From contig OU744736.1 in NCBI GenBank assembly GCA_916613615.1, forward strand, positions 10,675,724 through 10,739,723: a stretch of DNA of 64,000 nucleotides. Direction: 5' to 3'. The notes under the pieces were generated by a model, which had not been told where the DNA came from, ran no database searches, and saw only the letters and a list, made by a program, of their open reading frames with translations. Position numbers and translations under genes: made by a program. This DNA is from Steromphala cineraria (Eukaryota > Mollusca > Gastropoda > Trochida > Trochidae). This document shows, piece after piece, positions 41,627 to 63,579 of this stretch. Each line of letters begins with the position of its first letter. Positions within the stretch are counted from its first letter, which is position 1.

Positions 41627-43720
41627 ATGCCTCTCTTAGGTAAAAAAGTTTTCAACTGCTTAAAGTCTTTGAACGATATTAAGCCAGAGGAAACCGTTTT
41701 TACGATCCAACACACCAAGGAACAGTTCCGATCGAAAGCGTATCCTTTTGTCAAGTGACCATCTGCAGCATCCAATATGGCGGCGCGCATGGATTTCATT
41801 GTCAAAATACGTAAATTGAGGTGATTACTATGCCATGTAGATGATTGTGTTGATATTTTACGTGCATAAAGTATTTCATGAATGTAATCTTGTTGTGAAA
41901 TATCGTCGCCCGTGCAATCCAAATGATAAAATTATCAAAAATAATGAAAAATTAGCTAAATTGAGCCTTAGACGGTTGTTTACATCTCTATGGTGACCAC
42001 GTGGTTATAATATGTCAAATTTTATTCATATGAGACCAATTTAGGCTGCTTGTTAACTCTAAGTCGGTCTAAGTTGGTCTTTTGAAACGCGCTGTGCTAA
42101 GCTAGTCTTCCGCGATCCGCCATTTTGTGCTGGAATTAATGACTGGAAATGACATAGTCTGTTGCTGTCAAATGTGAATGCGATCATATTTATCAATGAA
42201 TCGCCTACCCGTGGTGTCATTATATAACTTAAATATCAATTTGAATTTAAATTGCTGTCAGGTTCATGATGTGTCATGACATTATTAAGAAATATAACGG
42301 AAATACTTTAATAGTTCAGTATATTATACCAAAAATGTATAGACCTGTTAAGAAATGTGAAATTTTTCAGACAGGTTTTTGAATCAACTGTTACTTTCAC
42401 AGTCTTGATTCTTCTTAAAACATATGTGATCCCTGCTGACATAACTTAGATTTCCTTAACTAGCTTAGTGAATTTGAGAAGAGAAAAGATCTGTATGAGG
42501 AGAGAATTTGGACCTGCCAATGTACTGGACATATAAATCTTACCCATGAAGAGGCCTGGAACTCGGAGAAAGCTGTTCAGAAGACGCTAAAAAACCAGTT
42601 TGCAACATGCTTCGAGAAACCTGTACTGGAAATAGTTCACCACAGTGAGTAATACTTGTTGATTTCACATTGTACATTTAGAATATTACTCTTATTTGTG
42701 ATAAATTGGCAATATCATTAAACAGACAATATCCCAAAACTTCATGTGAGAGAGGGTTCTGACGATTTATTTCATGTTCCCTTGGGTGTTTTTTTTGTTG
42801 CAATAAATAAACATAGATCATGCTCTACCCCAGAGTTATAAAATTCAGTTTTAGTCAAACATTTATAATTTTATGTACCTCAGGATTATAGTTCATCACT
42901 TACATATTTTCTCTACTAATTGTAACTATTTCAGATGTTTGCATGGATTGTGGTTCTCAGTAATGAATTCCAGTCTTTTGATAGAAGGAGATTTTGAACA
43001 GATTAAAACAGGCTTCTAGTTCACAGCTGAAATCAAAAACTTTAGAAAGCAACATTCCAGAAACTTTTACATCTATCATTCTTAAGATTTGTGATTGTCT
43101 TTGCCAGTTTGAAACTATTACTTTAACAAGATATCCAAGACATGTCATGTCAAGCTTGCAACAATGAATGGCTTAATCTCTCAGTAATTTCTTTCCTGCG
43201 TCAAATCTAAAGCCTTGTATCGGTGATATATATCTGTATAAAGATGTATGTCCTCTCTAGTTTAATTTCTCCCAAAATTATCTGTCGAGACAATTAACAT
43301 TACATGTTGATAAAATGAAACATTTAATGCAACTTCTCTTGGTAGTACAGGAGATATTAGAAACTTGTATAAATATATCTCTTGTATAAAATTCGTGTAC
43401 TTTCACCTCAAAAAAGAAATGTCACATTTATGTCTTCTTGCCTCATTTACTGTATCAAGATGCGCATCAAAATTAGTTTTTATTCATGAAGAAAAGAATC
43501 AAGAACAAGTTCTCCAACTTAATAGGTATTGTTTTGAGTTCTATCTTGGTATAAAAATGTATGTACTAGTATTATTGATGAAGTGAGATGTAACGCCCAT
43601 GATATTCTCTCCAGGTACGCTATCGCTGGACACGCTCGTGGATCAGGCATGGCTCAAACTGCAACAGGTGCTTGCTCTCAAGGAACAAGTCAGTCTACGC
43701 ATCAAGAACGCTGCGGCCAG
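41627..43720 (+). CDS. BAZ1B: BAZ1B exons 1-3: WAC domain
   Basis: Exon 1 starts at ATG 41627 (MPLLGKKVF, equivalent to the vertebrate MAPLLGRKPF start), contains FTIQHTKEQFR and stops at AAAGC|GTATCC. Exon 2 gives YEERIWTCQCTG, THEEAW and VLEIVHH. Exon 3 gives STLSLDTLVDQAWLKLQQ. This is the WAC (WSTF/Acf1/cbp146) DNA-binding domain, roughly residues 20-130. In vertebrate WSTF the N-terminal region including WAC also carries an atypical tyrosine kinase activity towards H2A.X; whether that holds here cannot be read from sequence. Confidence 0.94.
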
Positions 43721-46700
43721 GCACGTAATTCTCAAGTCACTTGATTCAGCTCTTTATTTTTGAAGTCTGAGAAAACAATATATAGTTTCTTTTTTTAGTC
43801 TAAACAGTGTCAACGTGCATTTATAGGCCATACAAATTTTCTGCTAGGCTCCTATGAATGAATGTGTAAGATAATAAAAATATAAAATTGATGTTAATTT
43901 AATATAATTCAGTACTTAATTTCAAGTATGAAAAAAATATATATAATTAGGATTACATTTAGCAGGTGAAATTGTTGGGTGAAAAAGGTCAAATAAAAAA
44001 CATTGTAAAAAATTTGCCATAATCATATATTGAATCTACTCAAATTATGACTGGTTGCATTTTTCTTTCAGTGGGAAGGGTTTCAGCGGCACTGTTGTGA
44101 TGATCGACATTTCAGGAGTCCAGGTTGGCAATAGCTCTTTATTTTCTGATTCTTCAGAGTTCAAACTGTTGAATTGTAATGATAATATATTTATCAAATC
44201 AACTTTTCAAAACCATCCTGGCAGCTAGACACATGTTCACAATAACTACTTTAAATCTTAATCAGCGTTTAAAGACTATTTTGGTGCATCCTCGTGGTAC
44301 AGTTCATGAGTGAGTTTGTTCAAATCCTTTTTAAATTAATGATTCTTTTCACATTTGAGTGTTGGGGGAAATGGATATATTGCTTGTTCATAAAGAAGTT
44401 GACTTGTTTTTGTGTTAAAATGTTTGCTATTCAAATAATTCTCTTACAAATATTAAATTTAGGTAAGTGAGTTTGTATCTCTCCGTAATAATGTCACATT
44501 CACTGTATAGCGATATGTATCATATTGTGTGGTACCTATATCGTGATATCCCTAGTAACTAATGATGTACACGTAATGTTTTTCCAGGCCAACCCAACCA
44601 GCAACTGCAGTTCTCCCTCCAGTGATAAAGAAAACAGTGCCAGTGAAGGGAAGGAATCGTCGCCCAAAAAATGGGTTCCACCAAAGGTACGAATACATTG
44701 TTGTGCTTTGAGTACTGCCTTGATGTAGTCATGATCAATTTCATAATGATTTTCATTTCAGTTGCGTGCATTGATATGTTTAATAAATTATGTTATAAGA
44801 CATACTTTCCAGAATTTATTGATTTGATTAAAAGATTATGGTTGGTACCTATTGTACATCTAGTTTCTGTAAGAGAAAGAATAATATGATACATCACTGT
44901 TTTTCGTTGCTTGATTCTAAAACCTTTTGAGTAATTTTGATGGTTGTGGTCAAAAATAAAAATATGTCATAACATGAGTTCAGCAACCATTCTTGATGAA
45001 TATCTCAAGTTACTTTCAAATCAAAAATGAAAATTACCAAAGGGAGATAATTTGTCAAGGGAGATAACTCTTACTTAGAGCTTTCTGGAATGATGAACTA
45101 ATGAATCAAAATTATGAATTTGTTTTCTTTCATTTCAGTTGTTGCCTTACAAGTACAGCATAAAACTGGATGAAGAGGATAAAATTATAAATAGTATACC
45201 TGCATCAGATTTAGTGTAAGTATTTACTAAAATGTGATATTCTAAATCAGTATCCCCGTAAGTTTTTGAAAACCAACAGGGTGGTGTTAGATGAGAAATT
45301 CATTGTTTAAAATATAATCCCTTTTTAAAAAATCTTTTTCTAATATGCAAATAAGCAAAAGTAAATAATCTATGTTGAATCCTATTAATCCTGTTTCAGT
45401 CGAGTCGATCGCCCACCGTCCAAAGAACTTCTGCGATTGTTTATCCGAGCTAGTGCGATCCGAGTGGGAGTGACATCAACAAGTCCATGGGTGGTCACTG
45501 ACTCTCTCGTCAAACGCTACTCTCTACCCAGCAAGTTTGCAGATTTCCTTCTTTCACCAGCCAAGGTGAGCACATTTTGTGTCGTGTAGAATTAAAAAAT
45601 TCCAGGGTTTTATGGCAAAAAATGTCCAGAGGACCCCCCAAAATGTTCATATGAACTACTCTATAGGCGTCCTGTTTAACAAATATGTTTTTGATGATGT
45701 CTATGATCAAAAGGATATGAAATTCACAGGAATAGCCAGGTAGTTTTTATCCCTTACAAAAAAATTCACTAAAAATAATAGAACTATAATCTGAAGAAAA
45801 GAAAGGATAATTAAGATATTTTTTGGCTATATAATGGTTTAAAGCATCTTTCCTCTCTTGATTTATACAAAGTAAATTAATAGAAATTACATCTTCCCAA
45901 AATGGTGTACCAGCAAACATGAAATAAAGCCTTTCTTGTAAGTGATAAGTTCTTAAATGTGTACTACAAACTCCCAATATTGGTTCCCCCACAGATGGCC
46001 GAAGCTGCAAAACGAGCCGAAGAAGAGTGTGGAAAGAAAAGAAAACACGGCTCACATCATAAACAATCGTCCTCAAAGAAAGTAAAAAAGTTAAAATTAT
46101 CTCCCAAGGAATCTGACAGCAAGAAAAGAAGTTCGAGCGGTGAGGCTAAGTCTAAGAAGAAAGACAGCTTTACGATCAAGAGGAAAAGTTTGGATGATGT
46201 TGTGGTATTAAGTGAAGATTCATCTGACGATGAAGTGTTAGCAACTCTTAAGAAAACAAACGATTCGGATGAGTCGGACAATGAAGTGCTTGCAACTCTT
46301 AAAAACACAAACGACTCTGATTCCGATACTCCATTGGTCAGTTTAAAACATCAGTTGACTCCGAAAAAGAAGAAACACAAATCAAGCGAGAGTGGTTCCG
46401 AGTCGGACACCCCTCTCAGTCAGTTGACACCTAAGAAGAAGAAGAGCAGTTCAAGTCCACGTAAGAAATCAGACTCGCCAAAAAAGAAAAAGTCGAAGAA
46501 AGAAGAGAAATCACCCAAGAAACGTGGGAGACCTCGCAAGGATGATAAACGAGGGAGACCTCGCAAGGATGATAGTGCAAACCAGGGGAAGTCTACGAAG
46601 AAGGTAGGCACATATAATTCTGATAGGTTAAGTAGTAGCTTTCTTGAAAATTTGATTGGCTTGCTGTATATAGCATCACAACTGTTTTTGATGAAAGGAT

Positions 46701-49700
46701 ATCAGGTGACAGGTGAGACAAGCTGAGGTAATAGGATCATATATTTATGAAGTCATTGAAAAGTCAGTGATTTTTAATTTCTTGCAAAAGATCTGTTCAT
46801 TAATTTAGTTGTCAAGTCATGAAGTTAACTGTTTGTGTGCCCATTAATTAAATTCAGTAACCCCAATGATATGACACTTGTACAATCCATGTGTTAAATA
46901 GCTGATAATTTGTAACATTATAGCTCCTGTACAGAAAAACGAAAACATCACCTGTGCAAATCTGCTCTTCCCCATAGCCATGAACCCACACCATAGGTGG
47001 AATCAGTAACATCCAACCAGTTGCCAGTAAAGATTTTCTTTCTGTTAGTAAATAAGTAACAATGCGACTCAAATTTCATAATTTTATAAATTGAGGGAAA
47101 GTTAGCACTATCTTATCAATTTACAAAAATGTTATCGTCTTGATTGAATGCTGCTAATGGCTGAAATATTGACCAAGCGGCAAAAACAATAACTCACTCA
47201 TTCACTCGTCTTGATTTACAACAATTTTATTGTCTTAATTAACTTAACAACTTCATTGCTGACTATCTGTTCATCCAGTATTTCTCCTTTCTCTGTAGGG
47301 CATGAAGCAAACAACCCTCCTAGGAATCGCTACCAAGAAGAGTCCTGGACAGACATCCAAATCTCCATCCAAGTCGCCAAAGAAGGCCATGTCACAACTT
47401 CCCAAAGCAGTAAAAGAGTAAGTAGCATTGTTTGAACAAATAACATTTTGAAAATTGAAGTTTGTACAGTCAGCGAGAATGTCTTATTAGAAAAGACAAG
47501 AGTAATGCATGAACAACTTCTTCTTTTTTACAGTAGCAAAGTAGATCCTTATACCGTTTTAATGCACGTGGGGAAACAAGAGGTCTCATTTGCTCATAAA
47601 TACCTAAACTAATCACGTTTAGCAAAATCAAGGATTAAAATAGTTTCAACAAGTTACTAAGGTAAACTTAAAATCCCAACTTTAATCTTTTTAATGACTT
47701 GATCCCAATAGCAAATGTATTAATCATACAAAAATCTATTTTTCAAAAAATTTCAAATATGTACATATAATTGTATCTTGGTAAGATGTTCAAAGTGATC
47801 GGGTACATATTAAGCATGATATGAACTTGATTTAAAACAAAAATGATAAATGTTCATGGCTGGAACAATGAATGAAAGGTTACATTTCAAATTCTGTTGC
47901 TATCTTTTCCTCTAGGCTAGCCAAGATCGGCCCCAACCATATAAAGTACAAACATCGGTTGTTAATGGCGGCGAAAATCGTCCAACCACAGATGTTTCCT
48001 CTTCTTCCGGAGAACATCAAGGATGTACTCATCAAGAAATACGAGGCGTTCAAAATCAAGAAACAATTGTAAGTTAGCTTTTATGGGTTTTATTTATGGA
48101 ATTGTAAGACATGAAACACCTCGCACAAGTAAAGAAAATCATGACTTGAAAGTTAAATGTTTTTTTATGAAAACATTCATTTCTGCAGGTTTGTGGATTT
48201 TCTTGTGTCATTGCCCTGTTAGTGGCAAACACTTATCTACCAAATACCAAGGGACTTGTCAATTCTGGACAGCTTGTACAGTATACTACCATTAAGAGTG
48301 ATGGATACTCGATTCTGATTGGTTCTCCTGAAAAATAAAACCTGATCCATTATGGGTTGAACTTCTCTGAACACATCTGTCATTTCAGAGCTGCTGTCTG
48401 CTATGTACTTGAAGAATTTTTCCAAAGTTATTAAACATGATTTATTTTCGTTGTTAACATGTTCTAACCAAATTGAGGTTAATAAAGTATTTTCCACCAA
48501 GTAAGAAGTTTTAAGTGGTCAATCAGCGCAGGATAACCTTTCAATATCATGACATGCATCAGGCTTCCCTTGAATACAGCAATAATACAGTGACATCATT
48601 TAGAATAAATTAAAGTTTAATATCGTCCCCTTATTTCCAGGAAGGGAATGTCTCGCGAGGAGAGGAAAGCTTTCTTGCAGAAAGAGAGAGAGAAGAATGC
48701 TAAGGAGTTGACTGAAGCTGAATTGGAGAAGAAAAAGGCTGCGCTGAGAGAAAAGTTAAGAGATATGAAAAAGGTTGGTTGGTTTTCATGTGTTAAGGTT
48801 AGCTATCAAACCCTTTTGAATCTTGGCATAATGTTTTAAACCATCTTGGTATTACAGCTCATCAAACCTCACATGGGTTCATAATGACATCAATCTGAGT
48901 GAATTAGGATCTATATTGCTTCACTTCATTAATAATAATAATAATAGAGTATTTATATCGCGCATTTATCCATGCCACAGCATGCTCAAAGCGCACACAA
49001 GATAAAGTGTTGATTAGAGTTTGAAGGCTAAGTGGAACATGTGAGTTTTGAGGTGAGCTTTGAAGGTTTGAAAGTCACAGCAGTCTCTCAGGTTCTGTGG
49101 GAGATTGTTCCATGCCACAGAACCAGAATAGGCAAATGATCTGTGTCCATATTGCACTGTCTCGTATCATTAGCGTATCGATCTCACCAGGCTCTATTCA
49201 TAGATCCAGCAGATTGACCTCTCATGTCATTCAAATGCAGCAAAGGTTGCCTCTTGAGCCAGCAACCAGTAGTGAATCAATATATAGAGATTATTAGCCG
49301 AGTGTGTTTCCGTATCATTAATATCATATAATAGGAATAAAATATGTATTATGCGAGCCTTTGGCGAGCATAATACATATATTTTTATTCCTATTATATG
49401 ATATTAATGATACGGAAACACCCTTGGCTAATATTTCTTTATCATATAATGTCATTTTGAAAGAAAAGGATTTTAAACAAAAATATGATTCCTTCTAAAA
49501 ATATGTTTGACCTAGATTTCGCGGAGTAATTTATTTCACAGTACACCAAGGTGAAGGTCATATTGTCGGCGATATACAGTTGTGAACAGTCTAGAAATAT
49601 TCCTTCATGAAATGATCTTTTCATAGTGATAGAAACGTCTCCTACAATCTATCGACATCTTAAGTGAAGTTACTATATATGGCTTATGCACAAGCAAACA

Positions 49701-52700
49701 TTTGTTTCTTCTATACAACACAAAAATTGGTACAAACCACTTGTCAACGTCACTACAACAGGGGAAGTAACTCTTACTGCACTTTGAAAAGCTGCATTGT
49801 CATTGCAGTTTCGCCAGTTCAGTGACGGTATCCTTAGACTAAACGCCGATTATTTCGAAGGTGGGATTGTTAATTGTTTGTTACTACGCTACTAGATAAT
49901 GTGTCCTATCACTAGAATATGATTTGTTTATGCTGTTAAGTTGAAAACTGACACGGTCAAAGCGGTCTAGGCCTATGTTACTCACGAAAATATTCAAGCA
50001 CATATTTTGTTCGATAGCCGGTATATTGTAAGCTGCATATCGTTATTATTTTGGTGTAAACGCACGATGAAAACAATTTGAAACGCTTCTATTACCAAGC
50101 TATTTCTAAAATACGAATGCGTGATAAGTTTACCCTGACGGATTTTTAGCTCATCAGGACTGAAAGTCCAGATGGGCTTATGGCATGGCCCGTCGTCCGG
50201 CGTCCGGCCGTAAACTTTTGACACTTTTGACTTCTCCTCATGAACCATGCACATTAGAGAGCTGAAATTTTGTGTACAAGTACCTTAGCATATGGTGATT
50301 CTAATTTGTAACTTTGGTGACCCTGTGACCCCAAATAGGGTCACAGGGGTCACAACTTTAAAAACCTATTTTCATCTTCTTCTCCAGTTCCAGAAGGACT
50401 AGAGAGTTAAAAATGATATGTGCAGACTCCTTGGCCAATGGGGATTCTAATTTGTAACTTTGGTGACCCTGTGACCCCAAAAAGGGTCACAGGGGTCACA
50501 ACCTTAAATACCTATTTTCATCTTCTTCTTCAGTTCCAAAAGGAGTAGAGAGTTAAAAATTATGTGCAGACTCCTTGGACAATGGAGATTCTAATTTGTA
50601 ACTTTGGTGACCCTGTGACCCCAAATAGGGTCACAGGGGTCACAACCTTAAAAAGCTATTTTCATCTTCTTCTCCAGTTCTAAAAGGACTAGAGAGTTAA
50701 AAATGATATGTGCAGACTCCTTGGCCAATGGGGATTCTTAATTGTAGATTTCGTGACCCCATGACCCCAAATAGGGGTCTGATATTGGCGATCTAGAAAG
50801 TGTTGAATAATAATTAGAGCTGGTTATCGCTACATTTTTGGTGATCGATAATCGCTAGTGTTCGATCGATTATCGATCGATTATAATCGTTATTATTGTT
50901 GACAGTCACTTTTCATTTCTGTGTCGAAAACCTACGTAAGCCAACTGACTTCCGGGTTGTTGTCATCACTCTACATTGGCGAAAGTATTTAAAAAAATGC
51001 TTTATCATATGTCTGCAGAATTAATACTGACCTCTTGACGTGAATAAATACAGGCAGTGAGTGACCTTTATTTAAATGTTCAAAGAAAATCTCGAACAAG
51101 AAAATGTAGGATCGTCGTCATTCATAAACTCGTCGGCCATCTTTTCCTGGGAAATGATAGTATCGAACGATGGCACCTTTTGTTATTTAATTCGTTTATA
51201 TTCTTATTTATAAGAGTTGAGAGGTCCACAAGAAGTATGAAATTGCAGAACAAGTTATGAAACATTATCTAATTGATTTGCATTTATTCACGTTAATATT
51301 GAAATGCCCGACTGACAGCGTCCTTTCAAATATTCACATTGTTTACCTTTCGGCCTCTTTCATAAGCAAATCAACTGTGATGTAAATAAATAAACGTCTG
51401 TATCCATCTGTCTTGTGTTGATATTGTATTTTAAATTGTTGATTTTGTTGTAAATGCTTATAACTAAGGCATCATGATAAAGAATCGTATCAGAAGCTCT
51501 GAAGTAGCTGTCGACTTTACCTGCCTAAGCGAAGTCACGTGACTATATGCAAATACCAATTGTTACATGGCCAATGAGAGTTGCACATCTTGTTCATGAA
51601 TATTAATTACTTCCCACGACAACCGATCTAAAAATACATGGCGATTTCATTGGCTGAGCAGGAGCCATGCGCACTTGAGTACGACATGACTTCCGTTTTT
51701 GAGGTAAACAGCAAAACTTTACGATTTGATTACACTTTTCAAATAAAGAAAATACGCTAAAGCAAAACCTTTTATTGTTTATGTATCAAAGTAATGATTA
51801 CTTCCGATTATTGATGTGCTGTTTTTTGTAATCGACAATCGTTTATTTGACTTCAATCGATCGATTAAGCGATCCTACGATTAATCGCTCCAGCACTAAT
51901 AATAATACATTTGTTTTGTAATTTTTTTATAGGTTTTCTTGCAATAGGTAACATCAGTTTAATTTTTGGCTCATCTTGCCTGTATAAAGCAAACTTGATA
52001 TGATGCCTGATGAGCTACAGAGCCAATGGCTCTATTTTGTTTACTTTTTTTTTATTCGATCAAAAACACAACCTGAAAACTCCCGATTACGTTATCAATG
52101 GTTAGCGACCGTTTTAGGACTCGCATGACATGCATGGAGTTTTGAGAAAATAGTTCGTGTTTTGACCTAATTTGCATCTTTATCAGATTTTGAGGCAATC
52201 GGATACCAAGTTTATCAGATAGCTTTATTGCATAGATAACACCCTCCATTATATGAAAAAGATCCTTATTTAATGAGATTGTAATGACATACATCTACAT
52301 TGATTAAGATTCGGTTTTATTTCTGAGCATTCAATAGTTATTATGCCCCCGAATCAGATATTCTGGGGGTATATTGTTTTTTTGCCCTGTCCATCTGTTT
52401 GTTACAAAAAAAACTTGCCCTTGCTCTTGACTTTTCATTGCTTGGAGGCAGAACTTTGATATTTCACATGTGCATCTATCATTAGACCTTTCAGATGAGG
52501 TCATAACTTTTGACCTTGTGACCTAGACCTTGGCATTAGGGGCAACAAGCACAGCTTGTTCTGCTTTGTGTTATATATCATAAAAGCCTGAAATACTTGC
52601 TATTTGTCTGTATTCTAGTCTATGTGAATTATTTTTGATATGAATTGTTTTGAATATTATGTCATTAGTTGTCTGGAGAATTGTAATTATACAAAACAAA

Positions 52701-55700
52701 TTTCCCTTTTGGGACAATAAAGATTATCTTATCTTATCTTATCTTAAAAAGCTGGAAAACTACTTGGCTTGCAAAAGGCCATAAATTCACTACCAACCAT
52801 CTAAGATTTTAAAATTTTATTGATACAACACATATTTAGAGTTGCTCTTTAAATCAATGCAATCAGAAAACCTTGTGTGATCCCATTGTTCCAAATGGCG
52901 ACCTAGTCCATTGCCCACGGTCTGTTACTTTGTGTGTCCTTGAAGATTCATATACTACTCTTGATAATACTTGGTTGAAATTATTAGCCCAGAAAAGCCT
53001 GGGGAAAAAACTTAATGAAGCCTTAGATTCAGGGCTTAAAATTTTGTTGAATACCCTGAATGATACATTACAAAAGCAATGAGTCTTTAAGTCTTCAGAT
53101 ACTCAAAATCAACATGTCTGTTTACAGAAAAAGGAAGAAGTCAGCTAACAGAAACCTTTATATCATGGGTTATCTTTCAGAGATACGAGGATTTAGACTT
53201 GAAAGGGTCACCGCTGCCGCCGCCCAAACTGATTCCCACCCCTGATGGACTTCCAAATGAGTATTTCGGTGACGTTGTCATGGTAACAGAGTTTTTGGAC
53301 ACCTACTGCGGTCTCTTTCAACCTGACGGAAAAAACATCGTCACTTCAGGTGAGATTCTGCCAGGTTTGCTCCTTGCAAATAAACTTTCCCAGAATGGAA
53401 AGACATTCTTTAGTATATTGCGGTTGCTGAAAACACAACTAGTGAGTTCATGTAGCATTCATGACTAGGACATGACGTCTAGGACATTTCTGAATGAATG
53501 AGATCATGTATCATATATAGAGAATGCTAAACTTGGTCCCATTAAGTAACATTTGTATAAAACTCTGGAATGATATAGGTGTTTATCATGCTTCTTGTTG
53601 ATAACTTATGCCATTCCAAGTTCAGTAAAAAAATTTATTAAACATAACCAAGTTGGGTATTTCACTATAGGATGATATATGTTTCGTGTCCGTCCCAGTT
53701 GAAGGAGACAACTTTTCTCAGAAATTATTTAAGATAGGATAACCAAATTTGCTGTGTCTTCAGGATGTCAATACTTAGGAGTTTCGCAGTCAAAAGCATG
53801 CAATTATTTTTTATCACCCGCCCAATGAAGTTGGTGGGAATATTGAAATTGGCTTCTTCCGCTTGTTCCAGCTTTACAAAATGATAAAATGGTCAGCGCA
53901 CAATATTATTACACAAGGTGTTATAACTTTGTAAGAATATACCATCGGTATCTTTAGTTGGCAAGTAATTAATTAATTGACTGTTTGCTTCTTATTTCAG
54001 ATGATTTAATGAAGTACCTGGCGTCCAACACAGACAAGTTTGAGCCGATATCGCAGGTGCTGGTGATTCTGCTGCAGACCTTGCTTCAAGACGAGATCGC
54101 CAAGTATTACAAGGAGCTAAGCACGTCCCTGGTCAGCCTGAGACTCAACCCGTTCAACGCCTCCGAGCTGATCCGCCTGTGTCTGAGGAAGACGGACTAC
54201 TTCCAGGGGAAGGACGAGGAATTCGGGGATGATGAAGTGGTCAGTTTGATGCTCCTTGTTCTCAAGTAGATATTAGAGCAAAATAGAAATACAATTAAAA
54301 TAAAACAGGAGTTTTAAAAAAAAACAGGAATAAATGTTTCATTAGTATTTGATAAAAGACTTTGCTACCATGGTATATGAATACCAAATAGGATGACTTC
54401 TTCAGCAATGTGGGAAAACAATACTGCAGTTTGAAGAATTTGATCTAAGAATTCCAACAATGTTCTTGATTACGGTTGAAGTAACAATCTCTGTCAGCAG
54501 TGCTCTTGTATTAGCCTTTAATCTGTTATGTACAAAACAAAGAATGTGACCCAAACCTCTGTTGTCTTCAAATGTCGCTATTGGCTGAAATATTACCCAA
54601 GCGTCGTAAAACAATAACTCACTCACTCACTGTTGTCTTCCAGTCCGATGAGGTGTTACAACAGCTGGAGACCCAAGACTTCCACCAGCTAGACCCGGTC
54701 TCCAAGCTGAAGATCATCCAGGGTCTGTGTCTGCGGATCCTCGGATCTTACTCTGTACAGGACTTCATGACGACCAAGCAAAGGACAGCCAAGGCCTCCT
54801 GGTTTGTATTTCACCTTCTCATATCCTAGTATTTGCAGTTTGGCCACTAATGGCTGAAATACGGTCTCAACGGTGTATCCAACTCAAACTCACTCACTCA
54901 CTCTCTGATTAAACATTAGACAAAAGGGGATGCAGTCAGACCTAGTTGAAAAGGAAACTGCAACTCACTGAATAAACATGAGACAATATGGGCTGCAGTC
55001 AGACCTAGTTGGAGAGGAAACTGCAACTCACTAACTCACAGAATAAACATGAGACAATAGGGGCTGCAGTCAGACCTAGTTGGAGAGGAAACTGCAACTC
55101 ACTAACTCACTGAATAAACATGAGACAATAGGGGCTGCAGTCAGACCTAGTTGGAGTGGAAGCCCCAATCTGGAACGAGTCCAAACTGGATAATGTCAAT
55201 ATGTCACAATTTTGTTCCTTGCAGTACGGTTACTTTTCATCAGATTATGTTTGTTGTAAAAGGGGATCACATAAAGGGGAATGTTCATCAAGACCGGTTG
55301 TATGAATGATAATCTTACTCATTGTTGACACTAATGATGTAAAAGTATAGACAGTAACGTTCTCAAACATGTCAAGAAGTGAAGGGATACAGAAATTTAT
55401 ATATTAGACACATTTCGGTTGATAATGAGTGGGTGTGATAATATGCAAAAACTTAAATGTCCCCTTGATTTTTGTTTTCACAATAAGCACTTTTCCATTG
55501 ACTGATTTTTCTCAAGCTCGCTTGCTCCTTTTCATAGTTCAATATTTTCTTTGTATTTTCAGCCGAGATCATAAACAGAAAAATAAGCAGAACAAGAAAG
55601 AGGAGAAAGGGGATGAAAATGAAGCAGATATGAAAAATTCTGGGGAATCTGGCGATGATAAACCAGCTGAGACGAAACCAGAGAACGAGAAAGGTCAGTG

Positions 55701-58700
55701 TTGAATCTGTTGAACAATTGGTGCTTCCCTATTCTATGATTTTCAAGGTCACTATGACACTTTGGTCACTTTTGAAACTCTTGTTAACGCTTTATCTAAT
55801 GAACCGCTGCACCTAATGTCTTCAAATTTAGTCACAGCCTACATTGGGGAATTATGCAGACACCAGTCACTTTGGATGACCTTGACATTAATTTCAAGGT
55901 CACTACGGCACTTTGGCTACTTTTGAAACTCTTGTTGAGCCCATATCTCTTGAACCATTGCACTTATTGCCAATGGGAATATAACATTTGCTTATTGGGA
56001 CAATTCTATCACAATATCCAAACGGCGGGGGACATTGCCACGTTAGTGGCAAACACTTGTTATTTCTCTCCTTGTTGCAGACAGGTTTATGGTAGAAAAA
56101 GTCATTGTCTGGTTATCATGCAAGTAGACCCACAATTATCCTTATTATCGTTGGTTTCCCCACTAAAATTTTTCTTGACAGCTCATCTAGAATGGCCTGA
56201 AACAAATAGCAGCTATCCTGAAATGATGAAAGAATCCCAATGGCCCAAGAATTCCCTCTCATACATAAACTATTCAGTGAAAGATCAGTCACATTTGTGA
56301 TTGAACAAGTAATTTATGAGACCAATCCCTGAATGAATTTTTAGTTACGAAAGAAAGAAGACTTTGTGAACAGTTTTTAATTTCATAAATGGTGTCATGA
56401 CAGGTTCAATCTTGGCTCACTTCTCAAGATAATTGATTCAATGATAGAAGAGCAGGCATATCACATATCAAGATTAACAAGTTAAGAAAGAGTACAATCA
56501 CCAGATAAATCATTAAATTGAGAAAATTTTAACCTTGTGAAAAGTAATTAATATCCATCCAATTATGAAAAACCTATTGAACATAAACTTCTTTACGAGG
56601 CATTTTAGAAGTTGGAATGATGATAATAAAGAGACATATGGATGACAATATTCTTTCAGATTTATGTGTCATTTTCAAGCAGATGAACAATAATTAATTT
56701 CCATCCATCCATGTTTCGCCAACAGGTTCGATCTTGGCTCATTTCTATGGCAAAGTGAAGGAAGGGGAGACGGACAGTGGGTCGGCCGCGGCGGAGTCGA
56801 TGGATGACGGCGAACCCTCAGACCTTCTCAACACACTCAAGAGCAGGAGACAACGAGCTGCACAAACTGCCGTGGAGAAGGAGAAGAGGGAACGCGAGAA
56901 GAAGGAGATGTGAGTGATTTGTCTTAAATATTTGTCTTAGACAAGAGAGTGCAGTGATTGGTCTCATATACACGTCCTCATACTAAACTCTTATGTTTAT
57001 AAATTTTTCAACTTCTACATTTTGAAATTGCAACAGGATGATTGAAGTGTAAATACTGTGTTATTACAAGAGCAAGCACCTGTTATGTTTCAGGAAGGAG
57101 CGTGAGTACAAGGAATATCGAGAGGAACTGACTCGAGAGAGGGAAGGCAGAATGTGCAAGGTAAGCAAATTCCCTGAATAGAGCTTGTCAGGTTAATTTC
57201 AATAGTCAGAGTTGGACTTTTCTGCCGATTTGGTAGTATATCAGTCAGTTGCGGCAATCCTAAGATGTAAACCTTTAGAAATTCCAAAGTATTCAAACTG
57301 AAATTTGCAAAATCAAACAGTATTTATAAATATGAGATCTTTTCAATATAAAGACTTGTAGATGTTACAAGGATACATTGTATTTTCAGGACATGTTGGA
57401 AGTTGCACGTCGTGTTTTACGGCATGTTCCAATTGGTGTGGACCGAAACCACAGCCGCTACTGGATCTTTCACAGCGGATCTCCCGCCATATATGTGGAG
57501 AAAGGTATCCATTCAACTTTTCTTTCTGCAATATTATCTATACTGAGACGGCACCGATCATGCTATTGAGAAGCTGACTATACTTAAGAACTTGTCTTTT
57601 CAAAAAGTATGCCGTATTGGTACTCATTCTGTTATCTGACGATGATGATTGTTGCTGTCTTGAAAAACGTAAAAAATACTTCATTGTAATACTGGCATCA
57701 TGAAGAACAAATCTCTCCACCAATGGATATAGACATTTGTGTGGCAGACATTCAATGTTATTGATCTTTACACTTTAAGGAACTGTCCTTTGGGATTCCG
57801 TTTCCGATCTTATTAGTTTTGAAAAAATAATGCTGTCCTTTTACATTGACTATTCACTAGTTTTACTTGAAATTTAAAATATATTATGTATTGATAGATA
57901 TTAATATGGACTATTTATAGACTAAAAACCAATGCCTGGTAATGACGTAGCAAGACTTTCCACAGGCTATCGCTGATGAGTGTCTTCACTTTCCATTGTT
58001 GGTGTTTTTAACCTGAATGTGCTTTTCTCTTTATCAAGTTGTCAAATAATCAACTCAAATATTACCCTCAGTAACCTGTTCAACTTGGTTGTGTTATGGT
58101 CATGTACTTTAAACAATCTTCTTTAAAGAATTTTGACATCAAAATATTTGTCTTTTGCTTTAATACATGTTTTAAATGCCTCTTAAGAACCTCATTATTA
58201 TACCCCCGCTACGACGTAGTCGGGGGTATATAGCGCTCCGCGTGTCCGTCCGTGCGTGCGTCCGTCCGTGCGTGCGTGCGTCCGTCCGAAATCGTTTCCG
58301 GAGCATTACTCAAAAACTATACCACTTAGAAACTTCAAATTTGGTATGGAAGTAGCCTATATGGTGCTGTGGTGCCTTTTAGGGGTTTCAGCTCAATGGT
58401 CCAAATAATTTTTGAAATTTTGACCAAAAACGGTCCGATTTTTGGACTTTGTCTCGTTTCCGGAGCATAACTCAAAAACTGTACCACTTAGAAACTTCAA
58501 ATTTGGTATGGAAGTAGCCTATATGGTGCTGTGGTGCCTTTTAGGGGTTTCAGCTCAATGGTCCAAATAATTTTTGAAATTTTGACCAAAAACGGTCCGA
58601 TTTTTGGACTTTGTCTCGTTTCCGGAGCATAACTCAAAAACTGTACCACTTAGAAACTTCAAATTTGGTATGGAAGTAGCCTATATGGTGCTGTGGTGCC

Positions 58701-61700
58701 TTTTAGGGGTTTCAGCTCAATGGTCCAAATAATTTTTGAAATTTTGACCAAAAACGGTCTGATTTTTGGACTTTGTCTCGTTTCAGGAGCATTACTAAAA
58801 TAATATACCACTTAGAAACTACAAATTTGGTATGGAAGTAGCCTATATGGTGCTGTTGTGCCTTTTAGGGGTTTCAGCTCAATGTTCTGAATAATTTTTG
58901 AAATTTTGACCAAAAACGGTCCAATTTTTGTTTTGTTGTTTCCGGAGCATATATAAATACCAAATGACTTGCACACTTCAAATTTGGTATGGAAGTATAC
59001 AGTCGAATTACGATTTTCAACTGTAAACAAAACAAGGTTCGACTGTATAGTGCTGTTGTGCCTTTTAGGGGTAATTCCAGGGTTCCCAGAATTTTATTCA
59101 AAAACTACATAGCCGCGGATGTTATGAAGTAAAATAGTTTTTAGGTTTGCAAGACCATTGTGTTCAAAGTCATAATCATTCAACGAGTAATTTTCATAAA
59201 TTTTCAAATTAATGTTACGTGAAGGCGGTCAAACTACAGACGGGGGTATGTGAGCCGTGCTCACTTTTGCCTTGTATGGATAAAGCAGAATGACACTTGA
59301 ATTTCATTTCCACAAAAGATGCCCCAATATGACTGTCCCTTTAAGTAGAGTATTGATGAATGATTGTGTATACCAGGCTGGGCAAGCCAGAACATCAACT
59401 ACAGCTGTCAGCACTCTGAGGACGATCTGCAGCCTCCCTGTACACCCAAGAAGGGCGACAGTGTTGCCGGGTCTCTACCGAACACACCGTCCCGGAAGAA
59501 GAGTACTTCAGAAATGAGGTGATGTATATGAAGAATGTTTTGTCACAGTGATTGCCTGTTGCATATACTGCCGAAGCAATGCTTAAAGCATACTGCACTA
59601 TAGATAGCGCAAGAGCTCACAAAAGATGAAGTGGTATTTTCAAATCAGTCACCTTTCCATTTGGGAGGTTGTTAAGCTTATTATAACTCCATAACTACTG
59701 CTTTATTTCTAAAAAATTGTCACAATATATATCTATAATGAAGTGATGAAATATTGTAGAAAGCTAACTAGCCTTTTTCACATTATGATTTTCATTTTGA
59801 AAATCTTGCATTTAGTGACAGGCTCAGGGGTTACGTTTATACTTCATTGCCAAACTGAAGTTTATTTACATTACATATTTAGAACAAGGATGATAGTCTA
59901 AAGGTTATATTAAAGTTTTCAAATATTGTAGTTAAAAAATCACACCTTGGTTTTGTGTTGCAGTTTGCCTGACAAAAATTAGGTTATGGATCTCAAATGT
60001 TTTAGCAGTTTTCATCTAGCATTTGCGGTTAAAATAATTATTATTGTTAAAAATTACTGTTGCAGTTGGTGAATAGCTAGGTAAAATATTTAATAAGTTG
60101 TAGTATTACCATTGTTTGCATTGTAAATTGAAAGTTTCCTTCTGTTGGTGATACAGCGTGCCCCCAGAAGGCCAGAACCTGTGGTTTGTGTACGAGACCC
60201 CGGAGGAAATAAAAGAGCTCATAAAATCACTCCACAAGAACGGAATCAGGGAGAGCGTTCTGTTGAAAAGACTCAAGAGCCAACATGAAACTATCGTCAA
60301 GGGAATGAGGAAGTATGAAGCTAGTTGTTATAAATAATGAAATTAGCTCGCAAACATAATCTGTTCAATATGACTGCTTTATTAGTAAAACAGGGTTTGT
60401 ACAATATTTGAATTTAGGCACTTGGCCTTAAAAAGCCGTTCATACACCTTTAAAACCTTTTTTAGCCTTTGAAAGCCTTATATTTGCTAACATTGATCTC
60501 AAAAATTCGTAAAAAGTTCAAAAGTATGGTAAAACACATTTATAAATTTTAAAAAGTATTTCTACGCAGAGGAATCTTTGTGTGATATTATGAATTCTGT
60601 CTACCAAGTCCATATTGTATGTCCCAGGATATATATGTGTGAATCATAAATTTGGGTCTTAAAAAATTTATCGAACCCTGTAAAAATAAAGTAGAACTCT
60701 GTTAGTTGAAAGTCATGTGTTAAGATGTCCGCGAACTACTTTCAGTCAATAAACTTTATGACATGGTAGAAAATCAAACGTATAATTAATAAATATCAAC
60801 CTTTACCTTGTTGAACAACAAATGAAAATATCTCATTTTTATATTGTGACAGCATGGATGTTTTTATCTGTTTTATAGTAAAATATCAAACCCAGAAGAC
60901 AAGAGGAAGGAGGATCAGGATGAGGAAGATATAGATGGAAACAAGAAAGCTGACAAAGAAATGCTGGAAGGGTTCAGAACGGTTAGTTCCCAGTTGAGAA
61001 TAATGATGAAGCACTGACTATGTTTATATACTTTGCAATTTAGTCATCTTTGTTTCTTAAGTGTCATAATTGACAGTGTATAATGTTCTTGATAAAATAA
61101 AACTTTCACTGCAGCCGAGCGGTAACTTTGATTTTCCAATTTATTACAAAATTTACCAACTATAATAAACATTTAAAACTATTCTGTTGAATAGTTTATT
61201 TCTAAAAGATGTAATGAAACTGAAAAGTTCAGTAACAAAAGTTTGTCACTCACCCCAGCATTCAATAATTAATTGCTGTTTACATTATGCTCAGCACTGT
61301 TTCTATGTATCGAATTACAATTTACATTTTTATTCTGAAATGTATATTAAATCAAAGTCAAGTGTATATTGATGCTTTAACCTGTAAGAAAAAAATTATA
61401 AGTAATAACGAATCTGTTTTTGTTTGATATTTCATCAAACTGGATACTTATTAAGAATGCGCAGTATTATCGGTATATTGCAATACAGAAATTAAGAACG
61501 ATACCCAACCTTAATACTAATGCTTCCAGGAACTACTGGAGCTGGAGGGCAGGATACGGAATGGTGGACTCGGTGGAATTCCCAAGTTCGATGTCTGGGA
61601 GGCAAAGGTGGTGTCTGCAACATGTATCAAGGAATTGGTGAGTTGGATATTAACCCTTTACATGCTGCATTCATTTATACTCTATTCTTCTGCCAATTTT

Positions 61701-63579
61701 AAAATCCTTGTTATCCCCCACAATAAAGAAACATAATGATATTGACACATTCATTAATGAGTAAAACTTATTGCAAATTCAAAATGAAAACCATGAATAA
61801 GAAAGGTATTCATATTTTCTAGCTATCGTAACTTAACAACTCGCTGATCTATGTTTTCTTGTTGACAGGGTCCGTGTCTCCTTATCTTTACAACTCGCTG
61901 ATCTATGTTTTCTTGTTGACAGGGTCCGTGTCTCCTTATCTTTACAACTCGCTGATCTATGGTTTCTTGTTGACAGGGTCCGTGTCTCCTTAACTTTACA
62001 ACTCGCTGATCTATGGTTTCTTGTTGACAGGGTCCGTGTCTCCTTATCTTTACAACTCGCTGATCTATGGTTTCTTGTTGACAGGGTCCGTGTCTCCTTA
62101 TCTTTACAACTCGCTGATCTATGGTTTCTTGTTGACAGGGTCCGTGTCTCCTTATCTTTACAACTCGCTGATCTATGGTTTCTTGTTGACAGGGTCCGTG
62201 TCTCCTTATCTTTACAACTCGCTGATCTATGGTTTCTTGTTGACAGGGTCCGTGTCTGAAGGAAGTGCAGATGAATGTTGCGGACAAGTTTACTCGGGGG
62301 ATGATGCGAGTTCTCAATATGACTGTTGTGGCAGTGAAAGGTAAATATCTTCAATCTGTTATCTTATTTTCCCTCGCAACTGGGCAGCAGAATCTGCACT
62401 AACGTTGAGAAGAAACATTGATAGATGTGAATGTCTCTGGTTGAAAATTTGCGTTAATGAGCTGTTGCTTGTCAAATTGTAGTGCCCTTAGATGGTTTCT
62501 ATAGATCAGTCCAAATCAAATCTTTTTGCAAATACTTGAATTTTTCAGGCAAAATAGGCAAATATAAAGTCAACAATATAAAATCACACAGTGCATACAA
62601 CGTTTCCAATAGATGTTTCGTCAAATTAATTTTCATGATTCTGGATACTTTGGCAGGGAAATATCGAAATCTATTCATAAAAATATAAAGTGTTAACAGT
62701 CACTAGTAAAAGTTACAATTGAAAGTGTTGTCAACAATTATCTGATGTCATTGAACAATGCTCTGACGCAAAGACACGTTCATGACATCATTCTTGGGTA
62801 ACAAGCTTTCTTTTGAGCCGACTCAACGTAAATGCAATCAGTTTCGATAAACATATAACGATTAAATCATTGAATAAATCTTGTGTATTATCACTTCTGG
62901 CTGTATCACTCATGAAATTAAGAACTTTCGTCCTCACTTGATGAGATAAGTATGGTATTTGTCAATAAAAGACAGATATCCTCCTAACATCAACTCTACC
63001 TACTATTTTCACCAACACTTTGTTTCAAATCATAACCATTTGCTGCAATCCACAGAAGAGGGGGAGGAGGAAGTGGTGGAAGACGATGACGTCCAGGCTG
63101 TGAGTGCAAGCAGTATCATCAACAAGTGGTTCAAGTCCGTGGACGAGTGTCAGACGTTCTCCAGACTCCATGTTCTGCTCAACATCCTCGAATCCTGCAT
63201 CAAGTGGGAGAAGTCCGCAGAGAATGCTGTGAGTATCGAGAACTATCTTCTCCCTGCTAACGGGAGAATTAAAGCCAAAGCACTTTCTCAAGTTCAGTGT
63301 GTCCAGAAGTTTCCTTGTATCTCAAAAACTTTGTTCAGTGTTAAAGCTTGTGCTACAGAACTTAATGAACTTTAACCCAATTTTGTACTGTCACTCATCT
63401 TAAGTTTTTTCTTCCATTACCACTTCTGATGCCCACAGAAATGCAAGATTTGTCGGCGGAAGGGAAGCGACGAGGCTGTGCTGCTGTGTGACGAGTGTAA
63501 CCAGGCCTTCCACATGTTCTGTCTCCGCCCCGCTCTCCTCCACGTCCCGCGCGGCGACTGGTTCTGTCCTGCCTGCATT
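41627..63579 (+). CDS. BAZ1B: Chromatin remodeller subunit BAZ1B/WSTF (3' partial)
   Basis: Twenty-five exons: 41627-41739, 42469-42644, 43615-43720, 44072-44123, 44588-44686, 45139-45215, 45400-45565, 45995-46603, 47299-47417, 47916-48068, 48641-48773, 53181-53349, 54001-54239, 54644-54801, 55563-55693, 56726-56909, 57094-57160, 57390-57504, 59377-59518, 60157-60312, 60879-60981, 61530-61637, 62247-62340, 63056-63228 and 63439-63579. They sum to 3783 nt, exactly 1261 codons. Domains in order are WAC, a basic Ser/Lys region, DDT, WHIM segments and PHD finger; the bromodomain must lie to the right. Landmarks shared with vertebrate BAZ1B rather than BAZ1A include the SPSSDKEN motif, KQTTLLGIA, LPSKFADFLL and RVLRHVPIGVDRNHSRYW. 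BAZ1B partners the SNF2H ATPase (WICH complex) at replication and damage sites. Confidence 0.95.
43721..44071 (+). other. BAZ1B: BAZ1B intron 3 with a GC-AG boundary
   Basis: The frame and protein continuity require the exon to end GCGGCCAG and the intron to begin GCACGT, ending TTTCTTTCAG. The next exon then reads SGKGFSGTVVMIDISG. The alternative GT four bases on (CAC|GTAATT) gives a frame (WEGFQRHCC) that is not family-like and does not join exon 5 in phase. GC-AG introns are a known minor class. Confidence 0.72.
44072..45565 (+). CDS. BAZ1B: BAZ1B exons 4-7
   Basis: Four exons of 52, 99, 77 and 166 nt. Exon 5 has the strongly conserved CSSPSSDKENSAS and KKWVPPK; exon 6 LPYKYSIKLDEEDKIINSIP; exon 7 RPPSKELLRLFIR, SPWVVTDSLVKRYSLPSKF and ADFLLSPAK. 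These match the segment that follows WAC in vertebrate WSTF, including the order and phase-compatible boundaries. Confidence 0.93.
45995..46603 (+). CDS. BAZ1B: BAZ1B exon 8: Lys/Ser-rich exon with two AT-hooks
   Basis: A 609-nt exon (residues 264-466), highly charged. It holds a near-repeat (DDEVLATLKKTNDSD, DNEVLATLKNTNDSD), repeated QLTPKKKK blocks and, near the end, two tandem RGRPRKDD motifs (46523-46546 and 46550-46573) created by a 27-bp DNA duplication. RGRP cores are classic AT-hooks, which bind the minor groove of AT-rich DNA. The exon sits where vertebrate WSTF has a long basic linker. Confidence 0.9.
47299..48773 (+). CDS. BAZ1B: BAZ1B exons 9-11
   Basis: Exon 9 carries GMKQTTLLGIATKKSPG, exon 10 IKYKHRLLMAAKIVQPQM and the helix VLIKKYEAFKIKKQL, and exon 11 the coiled, Lys/Glu-rich stretch GMSREERKAFLQKEREKN. 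In vertebrate WSTF the same order (MKQMTLL, then the YKE/LVQKRYELLEHKK helix, then MSEEQRKEYLKKK) precedes the DDT domain. The intron after exon 11 is the longest in the visible gene (4.4 kb). Confidence 0.92.
49280..49443. mobile_element. Hairpin element, ATAGAGATTATTA terminus, copy 3
   Basis: Opens TATATAGAGATTATTAGCCG and closes GGCTAATATTTCTTTAT. Arms containing TTTCCGTATCATTAATATCA and its complement flank a GCGAGCC-TTTGG-CGAGC centre. The outermost bases match the copies at 11235 and 12670, but the arm sequences are unrelated to theirs. Confidence 0.75.
50150..50780. repeat. Tandem repeat with GTGACCCTGTGACCCC units
   Basis: After a GCTCATCAGGACTG...GTCCGGCGTCCGGCC lead, a unit of about 150 bp is repeated three to four times. 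It contains TAACTTTGGTGACCCTGTGA, AGGGTCACAGGGGTCACAA and TTTTCATCTTCTTCTCCAG. The GTGACCCC / GGGGTCAC parts form short inverted repeats within each unit. Confidence 0.75.
52712..52747 (+). repeat. ATCTT-tailed non-LTR remnant
   Basis: GGGACAATAAAGATTATC followed by tandem TTATC units, a recognisable 3' tail of a truncated retroelement on the + strand. Confidence 0.6.
53181..54801 (+). CDS. BAZ1B: BAZ1B exons 12-14: DDT domain and WHIM1
   Basis: Exons of 169, 239 and 158 nt (residues about 602-790). Exon 12 has PDGLPNEYFGDVVMVTEFLD, exon 13 QVLVILLQTLLQDEIAKYY and ASELIRLCLRKTD, exon 14 DEVLQQLETQDF and LKIIQGLCLRILGSYSVQDF. The DDT domain with the adjoining WHIM1 motif is the surface that contacts the ISWI ATPase in WSTF/ACF1-type subunits. 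The exon 14 donor is CTCCTG|GTTTGT, leaving two bases completed by exon 15. Confidence 0.94.
54910..55163. repeat. About 70-bp minisatellite in BAZ1B intron 14
   Basis: Four imperfect copies of a unit with AAACATGAGACAATA, GGGCTGCAGTCAGACCTAG and GGAAACTGCAACTCAC. The unit length varies with the number of AACTCACT steps. It starts just after a CTCACTCAC-tailed repeat. Confidence 0.8.
55563..57160 (+). CDS. BAZ1B: BAZ1B exons 15-17: charged coiled-coil region
   Basis: Exon 15 (131 nt) is almost wholly Lys/Glu/Asp (KNKQNKKEEKGDENEAD). Exon 16 (184 nt) begins GSILAHFYGKVKEG and ends in KEKREREKKEM. Exon 17 (67 nt) is KEREYKEYREELTREREGRM. Together they form the Lys/Glu-rich coiled coil that links DDT/WHIM1 to WHIM2 in WSTF. 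Confidence 0.9.
56400..56424 (+). repeat. BAZ1B: Partial copy of the BAZ1B exon-16 acceptor
   Basis: 25 bp matching 56722-56746 (the true exon-16 acceptor) at 23 positions: ACAG|GTTCAATCTTGGCTCAC versus ACAG|GTTCGATCTTGGCTCAT. Both differences are third-codon-position transitions, so SILAHF is preserved. The copy then runs into TAA three codons later. It lies 322 bp upstream in intron 15. Confidence 0.75.
57390..59518 (+). CDS. BAZ1B: BAZ1B exons 18-19: WHIM2 region
   Basis: Exon 18 (115 nt) encodes LRHVPIGVDRNHSRYWIF and AIYVEKG, the conserved WHIM2/WSD motif, which in ISWI-partner proteins contacts the linker-DNA-sensing module. Exon 19 (142 nt, WASQNINYSCQHSEDD to PSRKKSTSEM) is Ser/Pro/Lys-rich and less conserved. 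Between them lies a 1.87-kb intron filled by a tandem-repeat element. Confidence 0.9.
58199..59275. repeat. TACCCCCGC-bounded element with 162-bp tandem units (BAZ1B intron 18)
   Basis: Begins TACCCCCGCTACGACGTAGT then CGGGGGTATA (an inverted pair), passes a CCGTCCGTGCGTGCG run, then carries about four to five copies of a 162-bp unit (starts at 58299, 58461, 58623 and about 58785; CGGAGCATAACTCAAAAACT). It ends near GACGGGGGTATGTGAGCCGTG. The copies are nearly identical at first and decay to the right. No protein domain is visible. Confidence 0.8.
60157..61637 (+). CDS. BAZ1B: BAZ1B exons 20-22
   Basis: Exon 20 (156 nt) carries NLWFVYETPEEIKELIKSL and HKNGIRESVLLKRLK, a well-conserved WSTF segment. 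Exon 21 (103 nt) is acidic/basic low-complexity (DKRKEDQDEEDIDGN). Exon 22 (108 nt) is ELLELEGRIRNGGLGG followed by FDVWEAKVVSATCIKEL. Phases 2, 2 and 0 are consistent through to exon 23. Confidence 0.9.
61832..62258. repeat. BAZ1B: 54-bp minisatellite made of a 3' splice site
   Basis: About eight copies of a 54-bp unit. Each contains CTCCTTATCTTT (pyrimidine-rich), CGCTGATCT (branch-point-like), TTTCTTGTTGACAG (tract plus acceptor AG) and GGTCCGTGTCT, which is the first 11 bases of BAZ1B exon 23. Acceptors fall exactly 54 bp apart, with first exon bases at 61869, 61923, 61977, 62031, 62085, 62139, 62193 and 62247. Units differ by only one or two bases (for example ATGTTTTC versus ATGGTTTC). 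Confidence 0.95.
62247..63579 (+). CDS. BAZ1B: BAZ1B exons 23-25: helical segment and PHD finger
   Basis: Exon 23 (94 nt, GPCLKEVQMNVADKF) begins at the last of eight tandem acceptors, because only that copy continues into CTGAAGGAAGTG. Exon 24 (173 nt) has QTFSRLHVLLNILESCIKW. Exon 25 (141 nt, residues 1215-1261) is a PHD finger with the Cys4-His-Cys3 pattern: CKIC, CDEC, FHMFC, WFCPAC. PHD fingers of this class read histone tails. The gene continues past the donor at 63580. Confidence 0.93.

Follow-up and report, generated by a model that had tools for sequence, protein, structure and literature searches.

How does a cell choose between splice sites that are nearly identical and stand in a row before the same exon? 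The question is raised by a locus of the gastropod Steromphala cineraria, located in a 64,000-nucleotide stretch of contig OU744736.1 (assembly GCA_916613615.1, positions 10,675,724 to 10,739,723, forward strand), hereafter the window, in which position 1 is the first letter. The array, its acceptors and the exons located below lie on its plus strand. Within a BAZ1B-like gene, a 3' splice site is repeated as a 54-bp tandem array, here called the BAZ1B array. An eight-way contest of near-equal acceptors, with seven nonsense outcomes, is real and unusual. The array may well be a harmless repeat.

A 3' splice site repeated in tandem

Tandem Repeats Finder identified a 54-bp array at 61832..62257, with 7.9 copies, 98% matches and 0% indels. 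It is made of head-to-tail copies of a single unit, as in a minisatellite, and comprises the end of an intron plus the first 11 nt of the following exon. A 21-mer spanning the junction, TTGTTGACAGGGTCCGTGTCT, occurs eight times in the window, and each of the seven successive spacings is 54. A first-pass annotation had reported eight equivalent acceptors in an array of this period, from 61832 to 62258; the acceptors and the start were correct, while the array ends at 62257. The AG dinucleotides of acceptors 1 to 7 are located at 61867..61868, 61921..61922, 61975..61976, 62029..62030, 62083..62084, 62137..62138 and 62191..62192, and that of acceptor 8 at 62245..62246. The intron measures 231 nt up to acceptor 1 and 609 nt up to acceptor 8 (61638..62246).

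The content proposed for the unit was also confirmed by motif: a branch-point-like CTGAT, a pyrimidine tract, an AG and the first 11 exon bases, which would together form a complete 3' splice-site module. The A of CTGAT stands at -22, as measured for acceptor 8 (motif at 62222..62226), and the sequence is identical in all units. Pyrimidines occupy 11-12 of the 16 positions from -20 to -5, and each unit has a single AG (counted in unit 3; no further AG arises where the other units differ). Judged by motif, each candidate thus carries the branch point, pyrimidine tract and AG expected of competing 3' splice sites. The six bases TGACAG are common to all eight acceptors; in acceptors 3-8 the identity extends over 20 bases of the intron and the first bases of the exon. 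The duplicated segment ends 11 bases into the exon, directly before GAAGGAAGTGCAGATGAA.

Unit 1 shows two differences from the consensus, unit 2 one, and unit 3 differs at its last base; units 4-7 match fully, and unit 8 has 48 matching bases before the exon continues. Over the first 48 nt, the 28 unit pairs have a mean of 0.68 differences and a maximum of 2, and 15 are identical. As a baseline, 2000 random pairs of adjacent 54-mers from the window agree on average at 14.9 of 54 positions. Because the units are so nearly identical, we infer that the array is young or recently homogenised. The length or even the existence of the array could also be an artefact of the assembly, as a single assembly and a single haplotype form the basis of the analysis. 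We regard this as highly improbable: the distinguishing substitutions follow an ordered pattern between units, and HiFi reads are far longer than 426 bp. PacBio HiFi libraries and a 42-fold PacBio coverage are reported for the published genome in the available part of the genome paper (PMC11074690), which also lists the poly(A) RNA-seq run ERR6688409 and the alternate haplotype GCA_916613985.1; the PacBio runs are ERR6939216/7.

The reading frame distinguishes the last acceptor from the other seven. The upstream exon (61530..61637, encoding ELLELEGR...CIKEL, donor TTG/gtgagt) ends in phase 0. From acceptor 8, the array exon (62247..62340, 94 nt, donor AAG/gtaaat) reads GPCLKEVQMNVADKFTRGMMRVLNMTVVAVK, in phase with this upstream exon and with the next one (63056..63228). 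From acceptors 1-7, the poison reading is GPCLL(I/N)FTTR, followed by TGA as codon 11; after GGTCCGTGTCT, the sequence is GAAGG from acceptor 8 versus CCTTA from acceptors 1-7. The first-pass annotation was therefore right that, with a unit divisible by three and an exon ending in phase 0, all seven upstream acceptors reach a stop at codon 11 and the most distal one alone keeps the frame open. The TGA belongs to the CTGAT motif of the unit that comes next (for acceptor 1, at 61899-61901). In the gene model described below, the premature stop precedes at least two later exon junctions, the arrangement expected of a splicing switch coupled to nonsense-mediated decay. Skipping the array exon would also lose the frame, its 94 nt not being divisible by three.

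The host gene was modelled with 23 exons, from 43615 to 63579, on splice junctions that we read ourselves and that are not an annotation. Joined with acceptor 8, these exons give 1164 codons without a stop, the array exon being the 21st of the 23 (counted from the beginning of the model at 43615); the first-pass annotation had numbered it 23 and the upstream exon 22. Within the 660 residues encoded from exon 53181 onwards, Pfam matches to WSD (67.5 bits) and PHD (45.6 bits) were above the cut-off, while a DDT match (19.2 bits) was below its cut-off of 22. Compared with solved structures, the PHD finger encoded by the exon at 63439..63579 is closest to that of WSTF (1f62, 77.1 bits; next chain 57). 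We take WSTF to be the BAZ1B product. A WSTF-like PHD finger placed after DDT (below cut-off) and WSD regions is the arrangement of BAZ1B/WSTF, and the name BAZ1B-like is well supported by these matches, in agreement with the identity first given to the gene. BAZ1B/WSTF also has a WAC domain and a bromodomain, which belong to the two ends of the gene, beyond the modelled exons.

The array separates the DDT- and WSD-type matches on its upstream side (with the same reservation for DDT) from the PHD finger on its downstream side, so that mRNAs spliced to an upstream acceptor might escape decay and yield a BAZ1B-like protein with DDT and WSD and without the region from the PHD finger onward. A functional truncation of this kind seems very improbable, given that a stop ahead of exon junctions, as here ahead of at least two in the model, is the classical decay signal.

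Other features of the gene were recorded along the way. The donor at 43720 in the model is GC and not GT (CAG/gcacgt). A coding exon contains an in-frame 27-bp duplication (46520-46574), so that RGRPRKDD, an AT-hook-like motif, is present twice. Beyond the first PHD exon, an open frame at 2150-2368 of stretch L002 shows what looks by eye like another cysteine pattern of the PHD type (CTECGGDEGLINCSTCPSAYHLECHNPPL); the human BAZ1B protein has a single PHD finger.

Exon context and the choice of acceptor

To compare the sites, an acceptor matrix was built from the other 22 acceptors of the gene. Acceptors 3-8 score 3.87 bits each and acceptors 1-2 score 4.84 bits; with this own-gene matrix, the real acceptor of the array ranks fifth weakest of 23 (leave-one-out). 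Since acceptors 3-8 tie and acceptors 1-2 score higher, site strength gives no preference for acceptor 8 and was rejected as a discriminator.

In the scanning model, as given in the available text of PMC1431707, the first AG downstream from the chosen branch point is used. Scanning had been expected to favour an upstream copy of the array. This expectation fails, because every unit combines a branch-point-like motif of its own with a single AG, which makes scanning neutral between units; it was thus discarded as a cause of upstream choice. The AG-free zone before acceptor 8 is 53 nt (range 16-83 across the 23 modelled exons); on the scanning model, the branch point used with acceptor 8 is then located within unit 8. 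As each module is self-contained, the acceptor would rather be chosen when the branch point is recognised and U2AF binds. Recursive splicing was judged implausible: the most donor-like of the five GTs per unit, AGG/GTCCGT, would retain only one G at each step.

Exon context gave a different picture from site strength. The 45 nt downstream from each acceptor were scored with a model of exon versus intron sequence for which this gene provided the training data, the scored exon being excluded. Acceptor 8 obtained +6.17 bits, compared with -3.43 to -4.58 for acceptors 1-7. The purine fraction at positions +12 to +41 is 0.73 after acceptor 8 and 0.30-0.37 after the others, the array exon being purine-rich from its base 12 (GAAGGAAG). 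The 45-nt test is suggestive in favour of acceptor 8, not decisive. Exon size was also considered: use of acceptor 8 gives 94 nt, acceptor 7 gives 148, acceptor 6 gives 202 and acceptors 1-5 give 256-472, in a gene where 22 of the 23 modelled exons measure at most 239 nt and one measures 609 nt. Acceptors 6 and 7 would therefore produce exons inside the normal range. Exon definition, and the action of purine-rich enhancers on the nearest acceptor, are established ideas, and both favour acceptor 8. It had been claimed that the gene must tolerate poison transcripts or exploit them. This does not follow, as purine-rich, exon-like sequence is present after acceptor 8 alone and acceptors 1-5 would create oversized exons.

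We lean towards the explanation that the array is a young, tolerated minisatellite with a captured 3' splice site, in which the distal acceptor dominates and a minor, decay-bound leak occurs upstream. The array would have grown by tandem duplication and unequal exchange, and may have persisted because the copy adjoining the exon body remained intact. Acceptor 8 would then win in most transcripts by exon definition, because it is the one acceptor that borders the purine-rich body of the exon, and the exon that it defines has a normal length. Some use of the upstream modules is likely, and the resulting stop-bearing mRNAs should be directed to nonsense-mediated decay.

Several points weigh against this explanation. 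A poor exon-like score does not exclude the use of an acceptor, because 4 of the 23 exons in the model themselves fall under -2 bits by the 45-nt measure. The pyrimidine tract of acceptors 1-2 is slightly better than that of acceptor 8, and proximity to the donor can favour upstream acceptors. The matrix itself is a weak guide, an AG within the exon (junction 62335) scoring 5.44, over all eight acceptors. Local folding was run with three settings, and in two of them it is unit 2, not unit 8, that has the most open branch-point and tract region. Finally, the neutral-minisatellite part of the explanation is drawn from the genome background.

The same arrangement could work as a dosage rheostat, in which a large and roughly constant share of transcripts would be spliced upstream and lost to nonsense-mediated decay, the copy number setting the BAZ1B level and possibly varying between individuals or tissues. 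Consistent with this, the seven upstream acceptors are intact, score equal or slightly higher and all lead to the stop at codon 11, and, with a unit length divisible by three, no copy is less poisonous than another. The gene has a second such case, a diverged copy of an acceptor and exon start located upstream of the original (56404, see below), and this copy too reads into a stop. This reading nevertheless appears unlikely, as the exon context favours acceptor 8, the near-identical units carry no trace of selection either way and, by our estimate, it is nothing uncommon for chance to place a stop within 11 codons in intronic sequence. A heritable form of such control is, judging from the sequence, decidedly doubtful: the array would be a mutable splicing attenuator set by copy number, its length determining the share of BAZ1B transcript lost to nonsense-mediated decay and its heritable length changes tuning the dose of a chromatin remodeller. 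Every further 54-bp unit would then contribute another decoy acceptor of equal standing, and the branch-point motif of this unit would also serve as the in-frame stop of the preceding one.

RNA structure might also decide, if neighbouring acceptors paired together and hid the upstream sites. The pyrimidine tract and AG are self-complementary with G-U pairs, and neighbouring units pair over about 14 bp in folding. Shuffled units pair about as well: an equally strong self-duplex was obtained in 42 of 300, an equally strong two-copy fold in 105 of 300, and 35 of 300 equalled the pairing gain, while the fold of a 108-nt pair of units was matched by 22 of 200 shuffles. For the whole intron and exon, z was 1.32 and 18 of 20 shuffles folded as well, and all eight AG regions are predicted to be closed (at most 0.0004 unpaired). 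Acceptor 8 is nominally the highest of them, or tied, in three local folding settings, but in two of these unit 2 has the more open branch-point and tract region. Concealment of the upstream acceptors is thus unsupported by these models and we hold it to be a very faint prospect. None of 4227 known RNA families matched the region 60800-63100 at the gathering threshold.

Minisatellites and splice-site copies in the gene and chromosome

To place the array in its genomic background, twenty 10-kb stretches taken at even intervals along this chromosome (200 kb) were analyzed with Tandem Repeats Finder. They contain 19 arrays with a period of at least 30, five of them with at least five copies, and the 64-kb window contains nine. 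The period, copy number and identity of the BAZ1B array fall inside the range of these 19 arrays, which were compared irrespective of their position relative to exons. With arrays this frequent, some would hit splice sites by chance, and those that survive would be the ones leaving a working acceptor beside the exon. One sampled stretch, at 49.6 Mb (L022, 1-10000), is wholly composed of a 176-bp satellite (97% match).

A repeat family dispersed in the genome was considered and rejected: a genome search with a 501-bp array query, in which only the best candidates were scored and very common words were skipped, returned one match, the window's own locus. Other arrays are present in introns of the same gene, at 58292-58997 (period 162), 50292-50776 (period 146) and 54892-55161 (period 71). 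Elsewhere on the chromosome, the unit of a period-146 array (L020, 8937-9746) resembles, by eye, the reverse complement of the unit at 50292-50776.

Upstream copies of splice sites were then sought by gapped alignment of 22 acceptors of the gene with their own upstream introns, with 100 shuffles each. For two of the 22, at 62247 (the array) and 56726, no shuffle reached the observed copy. At 56726, ACAG and 21 exon bases (56722-56746) recur 322 nt upstream at 56400-56424, with 23 of 25 bases identical; in a wider test this copy was reached by 1 of 300 shuffles. The copied acceptor at 56404 scores 4.58 bits, compared with 5.61 at the real site, and reads KGSILAHFSR before a stop. Acceptor 44072 stood above its 60 shuffles in the ungapped comparison (19/32) and was reached by 95 of 100 shuffles in the gapped one. 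Among 22 donors submitted to the same test, only that at 59518 (score 25, shuffle maximum 23) rose narrowly above its 100 shuffles, the other 21 remaining below.

Relation to known systems of splice-site choice

NAGNAG tandem acceptors resemble the BAZ1B array in offering several AGs per donor with a spacing that is a multiple of three, as far as the available text of PMC2951375 and PMC1431707 goes. NAGNAG sites lie within a few bases of each other, and the competition between them falls in step 2 of splicing (PMC1431707, same text), whereas the acceptors of the array are 54 nt apart, each with its own branch-point-like motif, and seven of eight outcomes end in a stop. In the ATM NSE, according to the accessible portion of PMC4702124, splice choice is coupled to nonsense-mediated decay, and an early stop is likewise expected to trigger decay. 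The array differs by extending an exon instead of adding a separate switch exon, and by its eight near-equal sites. In canine merle, at PMEL17, the length of a repeat at an intron-exon boundary is likewise of consequence; in the excerpted description (PMC7349775), that repeat is the poly(A) tail of an inserted element, while the BAZ1B unit is a 3' splice site that belongs to the gene itself. No description of a tandem array of whole acceptor modules was found in the literature covered, that is, titles and the starts of abstracts, with few subscription journals. Classic minigene work is said to have dealt with duplicated 3' splice sites.

Competing splice sites usually differ in sequence. Six-base site rankings are reported to explain most splice-site choices, and a 23-base score to perform better for human acceptors (PMC12480690, available part). 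Neither rule can separate acceptors 3-8, because TGACAG, the 20 intron bases and the first exon bases are identical among them. The usage pattern among the eight acceptors must stem largely from position and exon context, and the BAZ1B array represents a clean natural test of how a cell chooses between near-identical splice sites.

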